Source of the DNA: Anaeramoeba flamelloides
Taxonomy: Eukaryota; Metamonada; Anaeramoebidae
Length of the DNA: 64,000 nt
NCBI GenBank assembly: GCA_027625915.1
Contig: JANTQA010000036.1
Location: 6,779,001-6,843,000, forward strand
Direction of reading: 5' to 3'
Numbering within the stretch: the first letter of the stretch is position 1; every line of letters starts with the position of its first letter. The translations under genes and the position numbers were made by a program. Shown piece by piece: positions 7,586-59,594 of the stretch. The notes beneath the pieces were generated by a model. The model had not been told where the DNA came from and did not search any database. It saw only the letters and a list, made by a program, of their open reading frames with translations.

Positions 7586-8398
7586 TTATTTTTATTGTTG
7601 CTACTATTGCAAATTAATATTAAAGTTTATGCTTTCGGCTTTTTATTTTTTCTTTACATTTTCTCATTTTATTCAAGAATATAATATTTTATTAAATATC
7701 TTCTTTCTTTCTTTCTTTTTTTCTTTTTTCGTTTAATACTTTTAAATAAATATTTTTAAAAAATTGATTATATTGATTTGATTTGATTAATTGGTTGGTT
7801 GGCTTTATTTTAAAAGAAGGAAACTTTTTATTTTTTCTTTAAAAGAAAAAATAAATCAAATGTATTTTCAAACTTTGATAAAAAATGTGAAAATTATTAT
7901 ATTTCAAATTTGGTCAAATTTCAAAATTGGTCAAATTCTCATTTTTTTCTCAAAATAGTCAATTCAGTTTGAATATATAGACTGTAGGTATTTAAAACAC
8001 CCCTTTTTGGGTAGGTTCAGCTTTTTTAGAGCATGTTAGAGTGGTATGTTCGAGAATTTTGGCAAGGATTTTGAAAATTAAAATAATTAAGAGACCAATT
8101 AGGCTGGTAGAACTTATTTAAAGGGAAAAAATTCCACATTGAACTTTGGTAGCTAAAATTGGGTTTTAAACATATTTTTAAAAATGTTTAGTATTGATGA
8201 TTTCAAAATTTTCGATTTTTCAATAGTTTAAGTAATAAAATATTACCAATCGTTAAATAATATTTTTGTTTTTTCTTCCCACAATCACTAAAAAAACATT
8301 AAAATCTTTCATACTCAAAAAATAATATTGAATAGACTTTTCAAAAATATATAAAACTTCAATTTGATCAATTTTGTATTTTTACCAAATTTTTATTA

Positions 8399-8594
8399 CA
8401 GTCAGTTTCACTTTTAAGGCACAAACTTTCAACGAAATTTAAGGCACAATAAAAATCTCCAATTAAGGCATAAAAGTCAAATTCTAGTAAAAAAAATTGT
8501 AAAAAAAAAATATCCAATTTTTGTGCTTTAATTTGAGATTTTTTTGTGCCTCAAATTTCGTTGAAAGTTTGTGCCTTAAAAGTGAAACTGACTG
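8399..8594. mobile_element. Family B mariner-type MITE, copy 1
   Basis: This 196-bp element is nearly a full palindrome. It starts CAGTCAGTTTCACTTTTAAG, ends with the exact complement and is flanked by TA on both sides. An internal pair of AAGGCACA boxes repeats in each arm. A CAGT start and TA flanks are the hallmarks of Tc1/mariner elements. It encodes nothing. The arms are almost identical, so this is the best preserved copy of the family here. Confidence 0.85.
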
Positions 8595-12245: not shown

Positions 12246-15200
12246 ATGAATGAAATTGATAGTTTGAATTTTGGTGTTATAAAGCCAAGTTTGATTTGTT
12301 CTGGTCACACGGGGTCTGTAACAAAAGTAATTATTGATGAAAAAGATGGTTATGCATATTCCAGCTCCTTCGACAAAGAAATTAACAAATGGGACATTTC
12401 AAAATCTTCAAACCCTTGGGTTGGCACATTCGAAGGACACAAAGGAATTGTTAATGACATTTTAATTCAAGACAAAGAAATTTATTCTTGTTCTGTTGAT
12501 GGGACAGTCAAAAGTTGGAATATGAAAAAAACAAAAAATGTGAAAACATTTGAAGGCCACAGTGGATCTGTAAATTGTTTTCTTGTCAATGAAAATCGTT
12601 TAATTTCTGGTTCTGATGATTCGAAAATTAAGTTTGTTTCTTTTTCTTTTTTCTTTCTCTTTTTTAACTTCAATCTTTCTTTTTTTTTTTAATTTGTTGC
12701 TGGGAAGAAAGAAGGGAAATTTCAATTTTTTTTTTTTTTCATTCAATTTAAACCAACAGACAATTACAACAAAAAAAGAACATTTCTTAAAATTTGTTTT
12801 TCTTGAATGTTATTGCTTATGGTTTGTATTTAAATAAGCACCGATTTTTCCTTTTGTTACAAATTTGAGACAAAAAAATAAAAAGAAATTGATCCAATCC
12901 TTCATTAGATACCAAAAAAGTTCCGATCTTTTTTATTTGCTCAACAATTATAATTCCAATTTAAATTTCTTCTTTAATTTGAATTTGAAATTGATATTGG
13001 TCCATTCATTCGTTGCCTTCTTTCTTGACAAAATTGGAATTTTAATTCTATCTCCACAAATAACAAATGAATTTTACAGAAAATCAAGGAGAAAAACAAC
13101 AAAAACTCTTTTCCCAATGATTTTAAAAAAAAAAAATTGCTTGTTAATTTTACAAACCTTTGTGAACTCCCCTATTTAAATTTTTCCTTCAATAAAAATT
13201 CACTTTTTAAATATTTCTTGAATTTACTGATAACATTGACAAATAAAATATTTTAAAAAATTAATCTCTTCAAACCCAAAAAATTAGGATTTTTGATTTA
13301 AAAACTTCAAAATGTCTCACAACACTTGAAGGGCATACTGGCTCAATCCAAAATATACTACAAGTAAAGGATTCCTTATTTTCAACTTCAACAGATAACA
13401 CAATTATTGAATGGGATTTCGAAACAGGGAAATGTAAAAATGTGTTTGTTGGCCATTTGTCATATACAAGCTCAATGATCCATGATTCTGGTATCATTTA
13501 TACTGGTCTGAAGAATGGCCAGATTAAGGCTTGGAGTATGGATTATGGGGTATGCATTAGAAATTATAATGGGCTTCAGTTTCCAATTACCCAATTGCAA
13601 GTTCATAATGATTCTTTATATGCTTGTTTGTTTTTTTCTTTTTTCAATTTTCGTTCTTTTTTTTAATTTTTTGTTGCTATTATTTTCTGACTATTGATAA
13701 TCAATATTGAAACGCAACTCTAATCTATTTTCTTCAAAAAATAATCGATATAATCAAAAATTGGAAACAAAATAAATCTAAAAATAAATAAACAAATAAA
13801 TATATAAACAAATGAACAAATACAATAACAAAAATTAACAAAACAAACAAACACCGAAACAAACAAAAAGCTAGTTGGGACGGTAAAATTGGGATTTTTA
13901 ATATTAATTCTGAATTAATAAATAAAATTTATGATTCGCATAGAGGAAAAATAAATGATTTTATTATTAAAGACAATTATCTTTATTCTGTTGGAAGGGA
14001 TACCATCATGCGAGGATTTAATTTAAAAAACGGGAAATTGGATTATTTGTTCAAGGGACATAAGGATTCAATTAATAATATTGTTCCAACATCAGATTTT
14101 TTTTTAACAAGTTCCAAAGATAAAACTATCATCAAATGGAAAAATCCAAAAAATGTTAAAGGAAGGGGAGAAACGAGTGCAAAGCCCATTAATCCCAAAG
14201 AAACAAGGTATTATGGAAAGGTAAAAGATCCAAAAGTGAAATTATTTCGATTTATCTCAAGTAAAAAAAAAAATTTCGACAACCATATTGATAAACTAAT
14301 TCAAATATCTGAAGTGTATACCCGAACTGGAATTGGTTCGATCTACTTTGGCAAAATGCTTTGTGAGGCATTATTTACCTTTGCAATTGACGGATCCGAA
14401 ATGTTTATTAATGATGAAGATAACGAACTTGAGAAGGAAATGATGTTAATTAAAAAGCAAGACGAAAAAGAATCTCAACTAAATAAAATTTCTAATATTA
14501 TGAAGAGTTCAAGTTCTAGATTAAATTTAGATCCTGAAATTCAATTGGACGAAATATCTCTCAGTATTCAAAGAAAAAAAAATTTAAATTTTAGTAGTTA
14601 TTTAAAAGATTTCGCAGCACTACTGACCAAAATTGAAACTTCTCGTGAAAATATATTTAAATTTTATCAAAAGTCTTTTCAAAAACCGTTAACGCAGTGG
14701 AAATCAGAACAATCAAAAAAATTAAAAATAGCTTTAAAAAGTTTCAAGTAAGTTTTTTTGTTTTTTAATATTTTATTCTTGGCAATATTGATCAATATCT
14801 ATTTCACAAAATTTCTACAAAGTGTAATTGAATAATTCTTCAACCAAAAAAAAAAAATTAAAAAGTTTCTTTTTTTTTTTTTTTTATTTTAAAGGGAGGA
14901 AATTAATTTCCTCTTACAGCCGTTAGATTTTCTTGAGCTTGCTGTTTATTTGGAAAATAAACAAAACTTCGTTAGGTTTTTTTGAGTTTTCTATTTATTT
15001 GTGAAGTGTTCTAGGTTTTTTTGAGGTTTTCTATTTTATTTCAAAAAGTAAAAAAAACCTAACGAAAATCTATTGATTTTCTAAATAAATAGAAAACCTC
15101 AAAAAAACCTAGAAAACTTTACAAATAAAACAGAAAACCTCAAAAAAACCTAGAACACTTTACTAATAAAACAGAAAACCTCAAGAAAACCTAGGCACTC

Positions 15201-18200
15201 TACGGCACTCTACGAATTCCTAAATTTTTGTTTAGAAATCTCAATAAAGAATCATAATTTTCTTTATTGTTCACCAATGATAAAACGAATAATGTGTCTT
15301 TATTCCGAAAAATAACAAAGTTATCATTTTCTTCTGGGCTAGGCTAAAAAAATGACAAAAAATAACATATCTACAATGATGATTTAATTGGCTTATACTT
15401 TAGATCAACTTCTTTCCACTTGCTTACTCTTTCAATTTTGGCTCTATTTTCAAATTGTGAATTGTTATTTTTTGTTATTCAAAATAACTTTTTAGGATGA
15501 TGAGAGAGTTTCTAATTATTAAAATTAGAAGAGTTGTGGGATAAACTAAATTAGTAAATCTTATGTAGATCAAGTATACATCTTATACTAATTTTCGAAA
15601 AAAAGTGAAAATTAAAAGAGTCTTTTAATCATCCGACTCATCCAATTTGAATGTTTTTAACAAACAGTAATAATAAAAAATATCAGTTGAAAATTTCTAG
15701 ATCAAATTGATCAATTTGTTTGAGTTTGGTACTTTAAAGATGATTTTTGGATATTCTGTATTAGAGAAAAATTTTCAAAATTATTAAAAAAATTGGTAGA
15801 ATTTTTTACATTTTTGGTTATTTATTTTCCGGAATACAATTGGAAATATATTTTTTGTTTTTTGTTTGTTTTATATTTTATTTTAATTATTGATATTAAC
15901 AAGCCCGTTTCAAATAATAACCCTAGCAATTTTGTTCATTTCTCAAAAATAAGTTGATTATAATTCTCTCTTGGTGATATTAAAAATATCACCCATAGGG
16001 AATTATAATCAGCATATTTTTTCGAATTTACTAAAATAACCCCAGATATTATTCTTATTTTTTTTTTTTAATTTGAATTAATTCTTTAATCCAAAATTTT
16101 CGATTATTTTGATACACTTGGGCAATTCCATAAAAAATTATCGATATCTTCAATGATTTCTAAATTGAAATATTTTTTGCATAAATTGGAAGATTTTGTT
16201 TTTAATTTATTCTTATCATAAACATAAGAAAATTTGTTTAGATAATTTTTGGAGTTTCGTAGTTTTAATATGGAATGTGAACCCTTCCCATTTTAAATAT
16301 TGTTTGTTGTTAGGGTTTTTTTTAATTTGAGAAATCTCAAGAAAATTTAAACAAATTTTCAATTTATTTCAAAAATATAAAAAAAACCTGGTAACAGACG
16401 ATACTCTACCTTGCTCTACGGCATTTAACGACACGGCTGTTTATTATATTGTTATATGTAATAACTGTTAAATATTCTTGGCCTTTCTATCCAAAACAAT
16501 TTATTATCAAGATTCCCTCAAAATTGATTTAGATTTACGTCTAATAATAATAAGTTGTCTGCTTTCCCAATTAATATTTTCCATTATCTTTTTTTGAAAA
16601 CTTTAAATTTTTGGATATATTCACAAAACCCAGAATTTCTAATTTCCTTTTGAGCTTATATCTTCTTTTATAGATTCAAATTCTGACTTGGTCATTTTTT
16701 GCTTCAGTTTTATAGATTATCCTTGGAGAATGTGAATTAATTTTTAAGAATTTTGTGGCTTTTTTATTTATCCAAACATCAATTGAATCGAAATCTTTTT
16801 GAGTTAGAATAAATATAACTAATCCAGAAAATAACTGGCTAATACATATTGATTTAAACATTTGCAGTTTTACTCGATTGACTAAATTTTATTGACTAAA
16901 AATCATTTTTGATTTTTTTTTAAAATTATCTTTTACTTTTACAAAGTTTTTTTGTAAACATATTTCTCTTTTTCTAGCCAAATTCCTAAATATTTTATAA
17001 AAAGTTTCTTTTTTATCAATTAAAAGTAATTTTATTGTGAAATCTACTTTGGTAAAATCTCTGTATTTTTTTTGAAACACTTTTTTTAAACAAATTTACA
17101 AATATACAAGCAATGATCAATTCTTGAAAAAACTATATCAAAAATTGGAATTAATAAATAACCAACAATTTTTTTGTTTTTGATTATTAAAAGAACATTT
17201 CTTTTATTACAAATGTTTATTGAATTCTATATATGTGATGAATGGAAATTTTAGATATTTAAATAGTTATATTTGAATTGGGTTTAATAAAAATCTTTTG
17301 AAATAAATTTGCCACGCTTTTTTGGAAATAGATGTTATTAGTACAGTCAGTTCCACTTTTAAGGCACAAACTTTCAACCAAAATTTAAGTAACAAAAAAC
17401 AATTTCAAATTAAATCACAGTATTCAAATTATAGTAAAATAATTTGTAAAAAAAAAAATTCCAAAAAACGAGCTTTAATTCAAGATTTTTTTGTGTCTTA
17501 ATTTTCGATGAAAGTTTGTGCCTTAAAAGTGGTACTAACAATAATCAAAATCACAATTTTGAAAACTTTATCGAGAATCTATATACAAATCATCGATTTC
17601 TCTATTAAATCAAAGTGCGTTTTTTTGTTTTTTGTAAGAATTAAAGATTTAAAGGATTTTAAAAGTATTTTGTTCAATAAAAGTGAAAATTAATTGAATC
17701 GATTTTTAAGTTAATACGAATTTGAAAATTTTGAAAGAAACTCTGTAGAAGACAAAATTTATTGCTTTGGTGAAATAGAAATATATTAAAAAAAATGAAT
17801 AAAGTCAAAAATTCATAAAAAACTGATTAATCAATTGCTGTTTTGTAATCGACTCCATTCTTATTTCATATTTGTTTATTATAATTATTTTTCTATATAT
17901 ATTTTTAGAACTTTTCATCAAGATTTGATAGCTACGTCAGAGATTGTTAGAAATGAAATGAAAAAAAAGAAAAGGGATGTTAAAAAAACTAACCTTAAAT
18001 CAGAATTAGCCGAATCTAAAAGGAAAGTTGAAATGGCTGAAATTGAATTGAAAATTATTTTTAATCAAGTGGAGAATTTTAAAAAAACTGATTTTCTTGG
18101 GGAATTGTGTTCAATAATAAACCAAGAATTATCTTTTTATAAAATGGCATTTGGCATTTTGCTTGAAATTGATCCAAAAATAAATGAATTGAATCAAACA

Positions 18201-19424
18201 ATTTCAACAATTGAATTCGAAATTAATAATCAAAAAGAAAATATAAAGGAAAGCGAAAAATATGAAAAAAATAAAATTGAAAGTGAAAAACTTAAAAAAA
18301 TGAATCAATTAAGTCGAAAAAAACATACAAAGCAAAAAAAAAGTAAATTAAAAGAAGAAAAAGATCATACTGAAAAAAAGGGTAATTCAACAAAAAAAAA
18401 GAATAAAGATACAGAAGATGTCAAAAATATTGAAAAGAAATTAAATTCGGTTGATCTTAAATCTCAAAATGGCAATGAAAAGGGAAATCATAGTGATAGT
18501 GATAGTGGTAGCGATAGTGATAGTATTAGTATTAGTGAAAAGGATGATGGAAGTTCAGAGCTGGATCAAGAGACTTCCACAACCGATAGTGATCTAGATA
18601 ACATAGATTTTAATAGTGATACTTCAAGCCAGAGCAACAGATCTACAAGTGATAGTGAAAGGGATCTCAAAAAAAAAAGGAGCAAAGATAAAAAAAAACA
18701 GAAAGGCTCTTCAACAACAACAAAGAAAAAGAAAATAAAAGATGAAAACATAAAGAACAAGGAAAAGGAAAAGGAAAAAAAAAAGGAAAAAGAAAACGGA
18801 AAAAGGGAAAATAAAAAAAATGAAGATGATAAAAATAAAAAAAAAACTTCCAAAAAGAAAAAAGAAGATTCAAAGAAAAAAACAAGGAGTAAAAAGGAAG
18901 GCAAGGAGAAAGGGAAAGGTAAAGGGAAAAATAAAAAAAATAAAAAGGAAAACCATGAAAAGAAAAAGAAAAAGAAGCATACAAAAAAAACCAGTTCTGA
19001 CTATCCAAGTGAAAACGAAAAAAATTCAGAATCAAGCATGTCTACAGTTAGCGTGACCGATAGTGATGAGTCTTCTGGGAAAGGGAGAAAGAAAAGAAAA
19101 AAATCAAAGAAATCTAAAAAAACTAAAAAATCTAATAAATCAAAAAAATCAAAAAAGTCAAAACATACAAAAAGAAAGAAAAAAGGAAAGAAAAAAGAAA
19201 AAAGAAAAAAGAAAAAAAAAAAGGAGTCCAGTTCTGAAAATGATGAAGAACAACAAGATATTAGCAGCGATTTAGATATGGATATGGATATGATGAATGG
19301 GGATCAACCCATCAGTCAAAACTCTTCTGATGACATGATGAACATGAACCAAAATCCAATTTCTCAAAATAGTTCAGACTCATCGATTAGTTCAAGCTCA
19401 GAATCTGAATCGAGTAGTTCTTAA
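12246..19424 (+). CDS. WD40 propeller - BAR domain protein with charged tail (4 exons)
   Basis: Four exons join in frame to 1038 aa: 12246-12631, 13288-13625, 13871-14747 and 17909-19424. Donors are GTTTGT, GTTTGT and GTAAGT; acceptors are TTAG, AAAAG and TTTTTAG. Residues about 14-332 hold eight WD40 repeats (such as TFEGHKGIVNDILIQDKEIY and SSWDGKIGIFNI). Two of them are completed only by splicing, which supports the model. Residues about 355-640 match the ACAP/ASAP class of BAR domain. Signature stretches are SFQKPLTQWKSEQSKKLK, where ACAPs have PLexFikeDLKkvKe, and later INQELSFYKMAFGILLEI. BAR dimers bend membranes. The tail is an S/D-rich and poly-Lys low-complexity region ending in DSSISSSSESESSSS. 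The last intron (3161 bp) splits the BAR domain and carries transposon-like repeats. I know of no standard family with WD40 followed by BAR. Confidence 0.85.
14890..16500. mobile_element. Family D composite repeat, copy 1, inside the WD40-BAR intron
   Basis: The left end (TTAATTTCCTCTTACAGCCG) and right end (GACACGGCTGTTTATTATAT, then TGTTAAATATTCTTGG) match those of copy 2 at 51620-52670. ACAGCCGT on the left and ACGGCTGT on the right are inverted. The left part (14890-15235) has nested palindromes of CTAGGTTTTTTTGAGGTTTT and a degenerate 41-bp tandem unit (AGAAAACCTCAAAAAAACCT...). The right part resumes at about 16315. The 1.1 kb between is unique here and may be a later insertion or old filler. 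No transposase was seen. Confidence 0.6.
15956..16010. repeat. Short perfect-ended palindrome in intron
   Basis: GATTATAATTC at 15956-15966 pairs with GAATTATAATC at 16000-16010. GGTGATATT (15973-15981) and AATATCACC (15985-15993) form an inner stem. The stem-loop stands alone with no recognised family and could be a very short mobile element remnant. Confidence 0.6.
17344..17540. mobile_element. Family B MITE, copy 2, inside the WD40-BAR intron
   Basis: TA is followed by CAGTCAGTTCCACTTTTAAG and AAGGCACAAACTTTCAACC. The right arm reads GAAAGTTTGTGCCTTAAAAG. The right end has drifted (TACTAACA instead of AACTGACTG). It lies 370 bp upstream of the last exon of the host gene and does not disturb the splice sites. 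Confidence 0.75.
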
Positions 19425-37467: not shown

Positions 37468-37690
37468 GAGAAAATTTATAGCCAATTACTTAGATTTGAA
37501 AAAGCCTGTTTATTTTTATATTAAATACATTTCTAGAGAAGGAATCCTTATTTAGAAATTGGCCAAAAAAAAAAAATATTAGAGAATAGTCCCTTAAAAA
37601 AAATTCAAAAAATGAATCTAGTTATTTTTTTGTCAGAATAAAAACTATTTTATGTTTGATATTTTAATAAAGTGTGTACTCTTATGAATT

Positions 37691-37764
37691 TTGTGCCTTA
37701 CTTTTTGATTTTTATTGTGCCTTAAATTTTGAAGAAAGTTTATACCTTGAAAGTGGAACTGACT
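37691..37764. mobile_element. Family B MITE, right-half relic
   Basis: TTGTGCCTTACTTTTTGATT, TTTTTATTGTGCCTTAAATTTTG, AAGAAAGTTTATACCTTGAAAGTG and GAACTGACTATA form the right arm of family B. The left arm is gone. Confidence 0.65.
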
Positions 37765-38039
37765 ATACAGTGTAGTAAATAACTTGTGTTTTTTATTTTA
37801 ATCTTTTACCAAAAATTGACTCCTGCAAAAAATATTGGCTGACTGTAGAAATAAAAGAAACAAATCAATGGGATTACAACAGCATATAAACACAAAATAG
37901 GGTTCTTTTAAATCAATTTTTGAAAATGAATTATGAAGATATTGAATGATTAAAATGTAATTTTCTCTACAAAAAAAGAGAAAAAGATTTCATTTTTGAT
38001 TTTTAATAAGAAAATACATTTAATCTCAAGTTATTTTGA

Positions 38040-57580: not shown

Positions 57581-59594
57581 TTATAAAAATTGATTTTTCA
57601 ATTCCATCTGCTCTTTCAAAATTATAAATTTAGGATTGACTAAAGAATTTTTAGGATATTTTATTACTAAATTATGAATATTCGTATTTTGGGTATACAA
57701 ACTATTTGAAGAATTAGAATTTATCCAATTTAAAATATTTTTGATTCCGCCAAAGTCTTTTTCGTACAATTTAAAGATATTTGGTAACAATAATTTCTTA
57801 TTGGAAAATTTAACCAATTTCGTTAAAACATTCTGTGCAATTGATTTAAGATTTTGTTCAATATTATTAGATGTGAAGATTTGTAGCTGTACATTAAAGT
57901 GAAAATTGATCAAAGCAAAATGGAATTGTGGCTGTACTTTTTTTAGAGACAGTTTACCTCGTGCGTCGGTTTTTTTAAAATAATTTTGGTTTCTCAATGA
58001 TAGTTTATGTGTATTGTTAGCTCTTAATATACCATGATAAATATCTTTGAGGCAAAAATAATCATTGCAAATTCTATAGCAACATTTTTGATAAAACCTT
58101 TTTACTTCATTTCTATTTGAAGGTATTCCATAGTTTATTAACCCATTCAAAAATAATAAATTATAAATATTAATAAAGAAGCAAAACTTCTGTTGTTTAT
58201 CCAAGTTATTTAAGCGGATTCTTTGCAAATGTGAAGTTTCCTTTACAAATTTTCGATAAATTAGGGATTTGGAAACTAATTGTAAATTAATATTGTTTGA
58301 ACTAATTTTATAAAAGGTCATTAGAATTTGTGTTAATTTTTTTAATAGTTCTGCAGACAGCTTTTCTGCATCATGATATTTGCCTAGATACTCTATTTCT
58401 TCATTTAATACTATTTTTTTTTTGATGGGATAAATTAATTTGCTTTTTTTGACGTTTGGATTGTATTGATAATTTTGATCTTGCATTAATTCTTTTAATA
58501 AGATTTTAAATAAATTTGTCTGGGTAAATGATTCCCATGAATTTAAATTCATATGGTTATAAGCAGTTTGTTGTGCTTGATCAAACATAATTGTTGAATA
58601 GTTAGAAACTGAATGTAAATCGAGTATTTTTTGTCTCATTTTCGATTCAATATTAATTTCAAAAATTGAGCTTGGTATAATATATTTTTTAATGATTTTT
58701 TTTGCTTCTTTATTAATTTGCTATTATTAATTATGATGAAATTATTTTAATAGAGAAATATAATAAATGGGGAAGATACGGATATATATTTATAAGTATT
58801 TTGAATTTTTATAAAGCATTGTTTTGGATTTTTTTTATCTAGTTATTTATGAATGATAATTTGTGGATTGGATGTATAAATAAAGAGGCTATTCAAAACT
58901 ATCTAACCTACCACTTACAAGGCATTTTTATAAGAATTTAATCTTTTTGGTTTGAGAATTCAAACGTAAAGTTATGATCCACATAAAAAAAAAATCAATT
59001 CAAAAAAAAAAATTCTAAAAAATAAAAATAGTTAAAATCTTAAGATTATGAATTTCAATAGGAAGCAAATAGACTTAAAAGTTACAGTAGAATTGAAATG
59101 GGAATTATCGTTGATTTTTTTATTTTGAAGAAGAAAAGAAAATATTGAACTTTGAGTATAACTCAAACTATGACTTCTCAAGATGAATTAATATGAAAAT
59201 CGCAAAATTAAAGGAAGGGAATTTTTAATTCACAAATAGTTTTGTTTGAAATTTTTTATCAACTATAAAGGTTGTTTTAAAAAAGTCTGAACAAAAAAAA
59301 TTTGAAAATGTTCAAGAAAATAGTTGAATTTAAGTTTATCAACGGTTTTATCGATTCAATTAATAAAATTTTTGTATCACATTTTTATAACAACAAGTGA
59401 AAATTTCCTTTTTGATTAATTGATTACAATTTAGATCTTTGATTTTTTTTTATTGATTGTTTTCATATAATAAAATATATCGATAAATTTGGGCATGATT
59501 AAAGACGATTTGATAAATATTATTGTGTAGAGGTGTGGTGGTGGTTTAATTAAAGAATCTTTGATATTTTTGTAAAATATAAATTTATTTGGAT

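Follow-up and report, generated by a model that had tools for sequence, protein, structure and literature searches.

The locus at positions 12246-19424 (+) of a 64,000-nucleotide stretch of Anaeramoeba flamelloides DNA (the window; GenBank assembly GCA_027625915.1, contig JANTQA010000036.1, positions 6,779,001 to 6,843,000) raises the question of whether a WD40 propeller and a BAR domain are parts of a single protein, and what such a protein might do. BAR domains usually bind curved membranes, and in most proteins that carry them it is a PH, PX, SH3 or GAP part that directs the protein to the membrane. Judged from the DNA sequence, the WD40-BAR join is real, repeated, under selection and built of familiar modules, and the locus is almost certainly one protein-coding gene with the predicted structure described below. 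The overall explanation, which comprises a WD40 propeller, a short linker, an APPL-like BAR_3 domain and a tail, together with a mechanism for their action, is probably correct.

Gene structure and the WD40-BAR join

Exon 1 (12246-12631) carries the start codon, WD40 repeats 1 and 2 and part of repeat 3, and is followed by intron 1 (12632-13287; GTTTGT..TTAG, 656 nt), for which a single in-frame GT..AG reading was found within the stretch tested. Exon 2 (13288-13625, 338 nt) extends from the end of repeat 3 into repeat 6. For intron 2 (GTTTGT..AAAG, 245 nt) two readings keep the frame, 13626-13870 and, four bases on, 13630-13874; the former was chosen because the resulting WD40 strand is more usual. 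Exon 3 (13871-14747, residues 242-534) encodes the end of repeat 6 through repeat 8, the linker and the first part of the BAR domain, and lies inside an open frame at 13816-14751, with a TAA directly after 14747. Intron 3 (14748-17908; GTAAGT..TTTTAG) is 3161 nt long and contains dispersed repeats; five in-frame GT..AG pairs were found near its ends, and the chosen pair was preferred over the four others because the relatives described below splice at the same codon, and it preserves the BAR helix seen in them. At 77 codons, the longest open frame within the intron matches the median for 200 random sequences of similar composition. Exon 4 (17909-19424) holds the remaining BAR part (to approximately residue 645), a tail rich in Lys, Ser, Glu and Asp, and the stop codon. 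Translation of the four exons yields 1038 residues with no internal stop, in agreement with the initial annotation, in which they had been joined without frame errors.

Intron 3 also contains an inverted-repeat element (17335-17539; arms at 17320-17399 and 17486-17565), of which an 82% identical copy is located upstream at 8390-8592 and a shorter match at 37685-37768. The element may represent a short transposon family.

The analysis of the first ~340 residues agreed in part with the eight WD40 repeats counted earlier. Eight repeats are seen by eye at a spacing of ~40 residues, starting near residues 18, 61, 101, 141, 181, 221, 261 and 301, whereas the Pfam scan with PF00400 (94.0 bits, cut-off 27) counted five stretches. 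Among solved structures, the propeller was most similar to two Tako8 sequences (E 1.6e-107 and 4.8e-99), which are designed propellers. The best natural match was FBXW7 (E 4.7e-48), an eight-bladed WD40 propeller; unlike FBXW7, the window protein has no F-box match in the Pfam scan and its propeller precedes a BAR domain.

The BAR domain (14227-18242, approximately residues 361-645) is split by intron 3. When residues 352-676 were scanned, the BAR_3 profile (PF16746) matched residues 471-644 with E 3.4e-9 and 37.1 bits, over the cut-off of 31.7; a 296-residue fragment scored 39.3 bits. The match crosses the junction of exons 3 and 4 (14747/17909) at residue 534, and the SFQKPLTQW signature noted in the initial annotation is located at residues 510-518. 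Exon 3 alone matched profile positions 61-123 at its end (E 0.028; E 0.0084 for residues 352-533) and exon 4 alone matched positions 139-233 (E 9.7e-6), which indicates that the two exons encode successive parts of one domain. The first BAR helix (approximately residues 361-420) was placed solely from its alignment with the relatives: residues 352-425 align to them, but did not match a BAR profile when scanned by themselves.

A search of the genome (G000; 254 Mb in 76 contigs, the window being C37:6779001-6843000) identified a WD40-BAR family of at least 11 genes, consisting of five four-exon loci, the window copy included, and six genes with one frame. The BAR-part search gave 10 matches at the five loci. 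The identities to the two BAR pieces of the window copy were 96% and 90% for C24, 61% and 43% for C13, 32% and 29% for C46, and 33% and 30% for C64. At each of the five loci, an exon-3-like piece is followed by an exon-4-like piece, contiguous in the query and separated by 1.6 to ~4.6 kb, and the donor reads GTAAG. All four relatives also have WD40 exons upstream. Exon 2 is 338 nt long and the codon phase of intron 3 is identical in all five gene models; the splice sites of C13, C46 and C64 were chosen by hand for continuity of the frame.

The six other genes (C1, C70, two on C41, C51 and C48) encode the WD40 repeats and BAR_3 in one frame of 764-830 codons. Since both modules share an uninterrupted frame, an artefact of splicing cannot account for the fusion. 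The BAR_3 scores were 44-55 bits in four of these genes and at the cut-off in C51 (31.5 bits, or 31.9 with neighbours) and C48 (32.1 bits). Four of the six match the profile from position 25 onward, and in all six one more WD40 blade was matched in a short upstream stretch. The order of WD40 followed by BAR, proposed earlier for the window copy as one gene, thus recurs at ten further loci in this genome.

These data bear directly on the possibility that two neighbouring genes have been misjoined, one for a WD40 protein that stops at the TAA after 14747 and the other for a Lys-rich coiled coil at 17909-19424. In line with this, intron 3 carries repeats and far exceeds the other two introns in length, and its donor is GTAAGT as compared to GTTTGT in introns 1 and 2. 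However, successive parts of one BAR_3 profile lie on both sides of the intron, the five loci agree in the order of both pieces, the GTAAG donor and the codon phase, the six one-frame genes contain both modules, and the exon 4 frame has its first ATG at residue 551, within the BAR part. We consider a misjoining extremely improbable. A separate gene at 17909-19424, which the initial annotation had named as one of two findings that would overturn it, was rejected on the continuity of the BAR_3 profile and the layout of the relatives.

The substitution patterns were analyzed using the method of Nei and Gojobori, implemented in our own script. The window copy and C24 align without gaps over exons 1 to 3 and the BAR-coding stretch of exon 4, at 92-96% identity (96% at the nucleotide level for exon 1). 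Introns 1 and 2 are 89% and 91% alike, as compared to 62% for intron 3, which has 416 gap positions but retains its splice ends. The ratios of non-synonymous to synonymous substitution rates (dN/dS) for this pair were 0.10 for WD40, 0.05 for the exon-3 BAR part, 0.15 for the exon-4 BAR part and 0.24 for the tail. For C46 and C64, the ratios were 0.06 for WD40, 0.03 and 0.03 for the two BAR parts, 0.12 for the low-complexity region and 0.02 for SH3. The comparison of the window copy and C13 gave 0.24 for WD40, while the exon-3 part was saturated and not computable. The WD40 and BAR parts are both under purifying selection.

That the window copy is a drifting family member that has lost its SH3 domain is consistent with the lack of SH3 in this copy and with its low-complexity tail, which is the least constrained part. 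Against this, the WD40 and BAR coding parts are ungapped relative to C24 with ratios of 0.05-0.15, and the frame of the tail is open in both copies despite insertions and deletions. We regard drift as improbable.

The BAR domain and its known relatives

The initial annotation described the BAR domain as ACAP/ASAP-type. When the BAR part of the window protein was compared with solved structures using phmmer, the APPL1 BAR domain was matched at E 0.01. The search was extended with a profile of eight family members (the window copy, C24, C13, C46, C64, C1, one C41 gene and C51), leaving out the near duplicates C70, C48 and the second C41 gene. With this profile, the BAR domains of APPL1 (E 1.4e-7) and APPL2 (E ~3e-5) were the closest, followed by those of endophilin, amphiphysin and Bin1 (E 0.001-0.01), whereas unrelated coiled or ribosomal chains appeared from 0.058 on and the ASAP3 BAR domain only at E 0.31. 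All eight members matched BAR_3 at E<=0.01, and two of them matched PF03114 (BAR). Since the nearest solved fold is the APPL1 BAR domain, "APPL/BAR_3-type" is a safer label than "ACAP/ASAP-type", which was not supported given the distance to ASAP3 and the lack of PH and ArfGAP matches.

The architecture was compared with those of known BAR proteins. APPL1 and APPL2 (DCC-interacting protein 13 alpha and beta), the best solved matches, belong to the same Pfam family, BAR_3. In APPL, PH and PTB follow the BAR domain, whereas the window protein has a WD40 propeller before it and no PH or PTB match. ACAP and ASAP have the order BAR-PH-ArfGAP-ankyrin, with an additional SH3 in ASAP, and their BAR domains belong to BAR_3; the family shares with them the BAR_3-type domain and, in five relatives, an SH3 on the C-terminal side, but PH, ArfGAP and ankyrin are absent from the window protein at E<=1. 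In endophilin and amphiphysin, BAR is followed by SH3, an order also seen in relatives of the window copy, and the BAR profile reaches both proteins, as described above. They differ in that the BAR domain of the relatives is of the BAR_3 family and is preceded by a propeller, and the window copy has no SH3.

A frame on another contig (L001:1192-1944, -, G000:C33) encodes a BAR_3 domain (65.9 bits) and, at its end, a PH-like stretch that scored 21.7 bits, below the cut-off of 25.1; a similar frame in L002 was recognized by resemblance of the translations. L001 looks like an ordinary ACAP-like gene and provides a contrast to the WD40-BAR genes.

The regions downstream of the BAR domain are variable. 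The tail of the window protein is 388 residues long, with 112 Lys and 70 Ser, and is probably disordered. No Pfam family was matched by the tails of the window copy and C24 at E<=1, and the Pfam scan of the window protein, tail included, gave no PH, ArfGAP, ankyrin, PTB or SH3 at the same threshold. The initial annotation had considered this tail a mark of a new type of protein, a view that was not supported, as a long tail of this kind was present in only two of the 11 members (the window copy and C24), whereas SH3 exceeded the Pfam cut-off in five (C46, C64, C70 [L005], C51 [L027] and C48 [L028]). In C1 (L003) an SH3 was below the cut-off, and the C-terminal fragments of the two C41 genes (L006 and L007) showed no SH3 at E<=0.5. 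Different C-terminal ends, acidic and rich in Ser, are found in C1 and C70, and the C13 gene model ends after the BAR domain.

A candidate membrane scaffold

We propose a mechanism in which the BAR part would dimerise and the dimer would rest on a curved, negatively charged membrane through the basic residues kept near its presumed tip. Its pair of propellers would bind proteins and, as platforms, either recruit the scaffold to an endosomal or phagosomal membrane or load cargo or regulators onto it. The propeller would thereby stand where APPL, ACAP and ASAP use PH, PTB or ArfGAP, and the SH3, or the charged tail in the window copy and its C24 twin, may add contacts with partners or the membrane. 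The chances that this membrane-scaffold mechanism is correct are slightly below even. The reading of the protein as a new scaffold type, put forward earlier, is a plausible hypothesis.

Several observations weigh against the overall explanation. When the whole 1038 residues were scanned, BAR_3 was absent from the 24 families matched at E<=1, perhaps since the biased tail affects the scoring. The one-frame group is 29-33% identical to the window copy in the WD40 part, and only 13-20% in the BAR part. For C13, the exon-4 part taken by itself matched no Pfam family at E<=1, and it is fast-evolving (dN/dS 0.54 relative to the window copy); the joined C13 BAR part does match BAR_3 (E<=0.01). An AlphaFold model of the exon-4 fragment, computed from a single sequence, consisted of two long helices with a mean predicted local distance difference test score (pLDDT) of 86.9 and a predicted template modelling score (pTM) of 0.39, and Foldseek retrieved no solved structure for it at E<=10; the model was counted as neutral because half a domain without an alignment cannot test for the crescent-shaped, antiparallel three-helix dimer of BAR domains. 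A Lys/Arg cluster is present at the presumed tip between helices 2 and 3 in all 11 members (5-8 of 16-20 residues), but proteins of this kind are often rich in basic residues, which makes the cluster weak evidence of membrane binding. Finally, the gene model is known from the DNA alone.

The low BAR identity between the two groups, the 112 Lys in the tail and the lack of PH or any other lipid-binding Pfam family in the window protein could also suggest that the BAR-like part has lost its contact with membrane and serves as a coiled coil for dimerisation, in a cytosolic or cytoskeletal WD40 scaffold with a tail that binds nucleic acid or ribosomes. This alternative appears unlikely: the eight members of the alignment match BAR_3, which goes beyond a generic coiled coil, and solved BAR domains are matched as well; the BAR domain is followed by SH3 in five relatives, as in endophilin and amphiphysin; and the basic residues at the presumed tip are kept throughout the family.

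A broader view of the membrane scaffold is that WD40-BAR(-SH3) proteins form an undescribed class of membrane-curvature adaptors, which arose by one or two fusions in this lineage, comprises at least 11 genes and uses the propeller in place of lipid- or GTPase-reading domains. Such a class is possible but doubtful. If it exists, it would link the recognition of proteins directly to the shape of the membrane, perhaps at phagosomes or at compartments that house symbionts. A propeller placed before the BAR domain would steer the protein by recognition of proteins or phosphopeptides rather than by PH, PX, SH3 or GAP parts. As the genome has multiple copies, some of which carry SH3 and some of which do not, it offers a natural series for testing the contribution of each part.

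No description of WD40 and BAR in one protein was found in the literature searched, which largely excluded subscription papers. The combination was not described in the accessible parts of PMC6563779, PMC4824007 and PMC10380299, and WD40 and BAR are located in separate proteins in Giardia according to the portion available of PMC7058353. According to the sections available of PMC11550330, Anaeramoeba genomes are AT-rich and their gene families for membrane trafficking are expanded, alongside a symbiont compartment; "WD40" is absent from its main text, and "bar" refers to scale bars in the passages available. The family is thus composed of known modules in an order that is apparently undescribed, and its novelty is unproven.

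Bacterial/archaeal and viral contigs were each scanned once with the exon-3 BAR part, giving 62 and 9 pattern matches, respectively, none of which was confirmed; these scans are uninformative on other protists.

WD40-hydrogenase genes and other observations

The organism is an AT-rich, probably anaerobic protist; the GC content of the window is 20-31% and FeFe-hydrogenase genes are present in the same genome, both of which are consistent with Anaeramoeba. No RNA genes were found by Rfam and tRNA scans of the 64-kb window.

A WD40 propeller is joined in an open frame to FeFe-hydrogenase at no fewer than ten loci (L029-L033 and L035-L039). In L030 (3418-4614 and 5878-7677, G000:C61), WD40 and a 2Fe-2S domain (Fer2_4) share one frame, and Fe_hyd_lg_C, Fe_hyd_SSU and flavodoxin are located in the next. 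In L029 (1-2583, C26, -), WD40 and Fe_hyd_lg_C are located in a single frame. The other eight loci were judged from their translations only. Nothing that evidently describes this join was found in the accessible portions of the literature searched, and it is possibly more surprising than the WD40-BAR join.

When 116 of 497 candidates were scored against the window propeller, the WD40-hydrogenase genes ranked high, interleaved with and just below the WD40-BAR genes. A tree of WD40 blades 5-8 showed three groups, with five sequences in the window group, six in the one-frame group and ten in the WD40-hydrogenase group; it has no outgroup and carries a long-branch warning, and one versus two origins of the WD40-BAR join are unreadable from it. 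A single propeller type may have been fused, in separate genes, to either of two unrelated modules, BAR and hydrogenase.

Next to one of the WD40-hydrogenase genes (L038:3233-4340, -, G000:C61), the translations of two frames resemble pieces of a mariner-type transposase. In the window itself, an open frame at 57584-58720 (-) encodes a partial RGS domain and DUF547, both over the Pfam cut-off.

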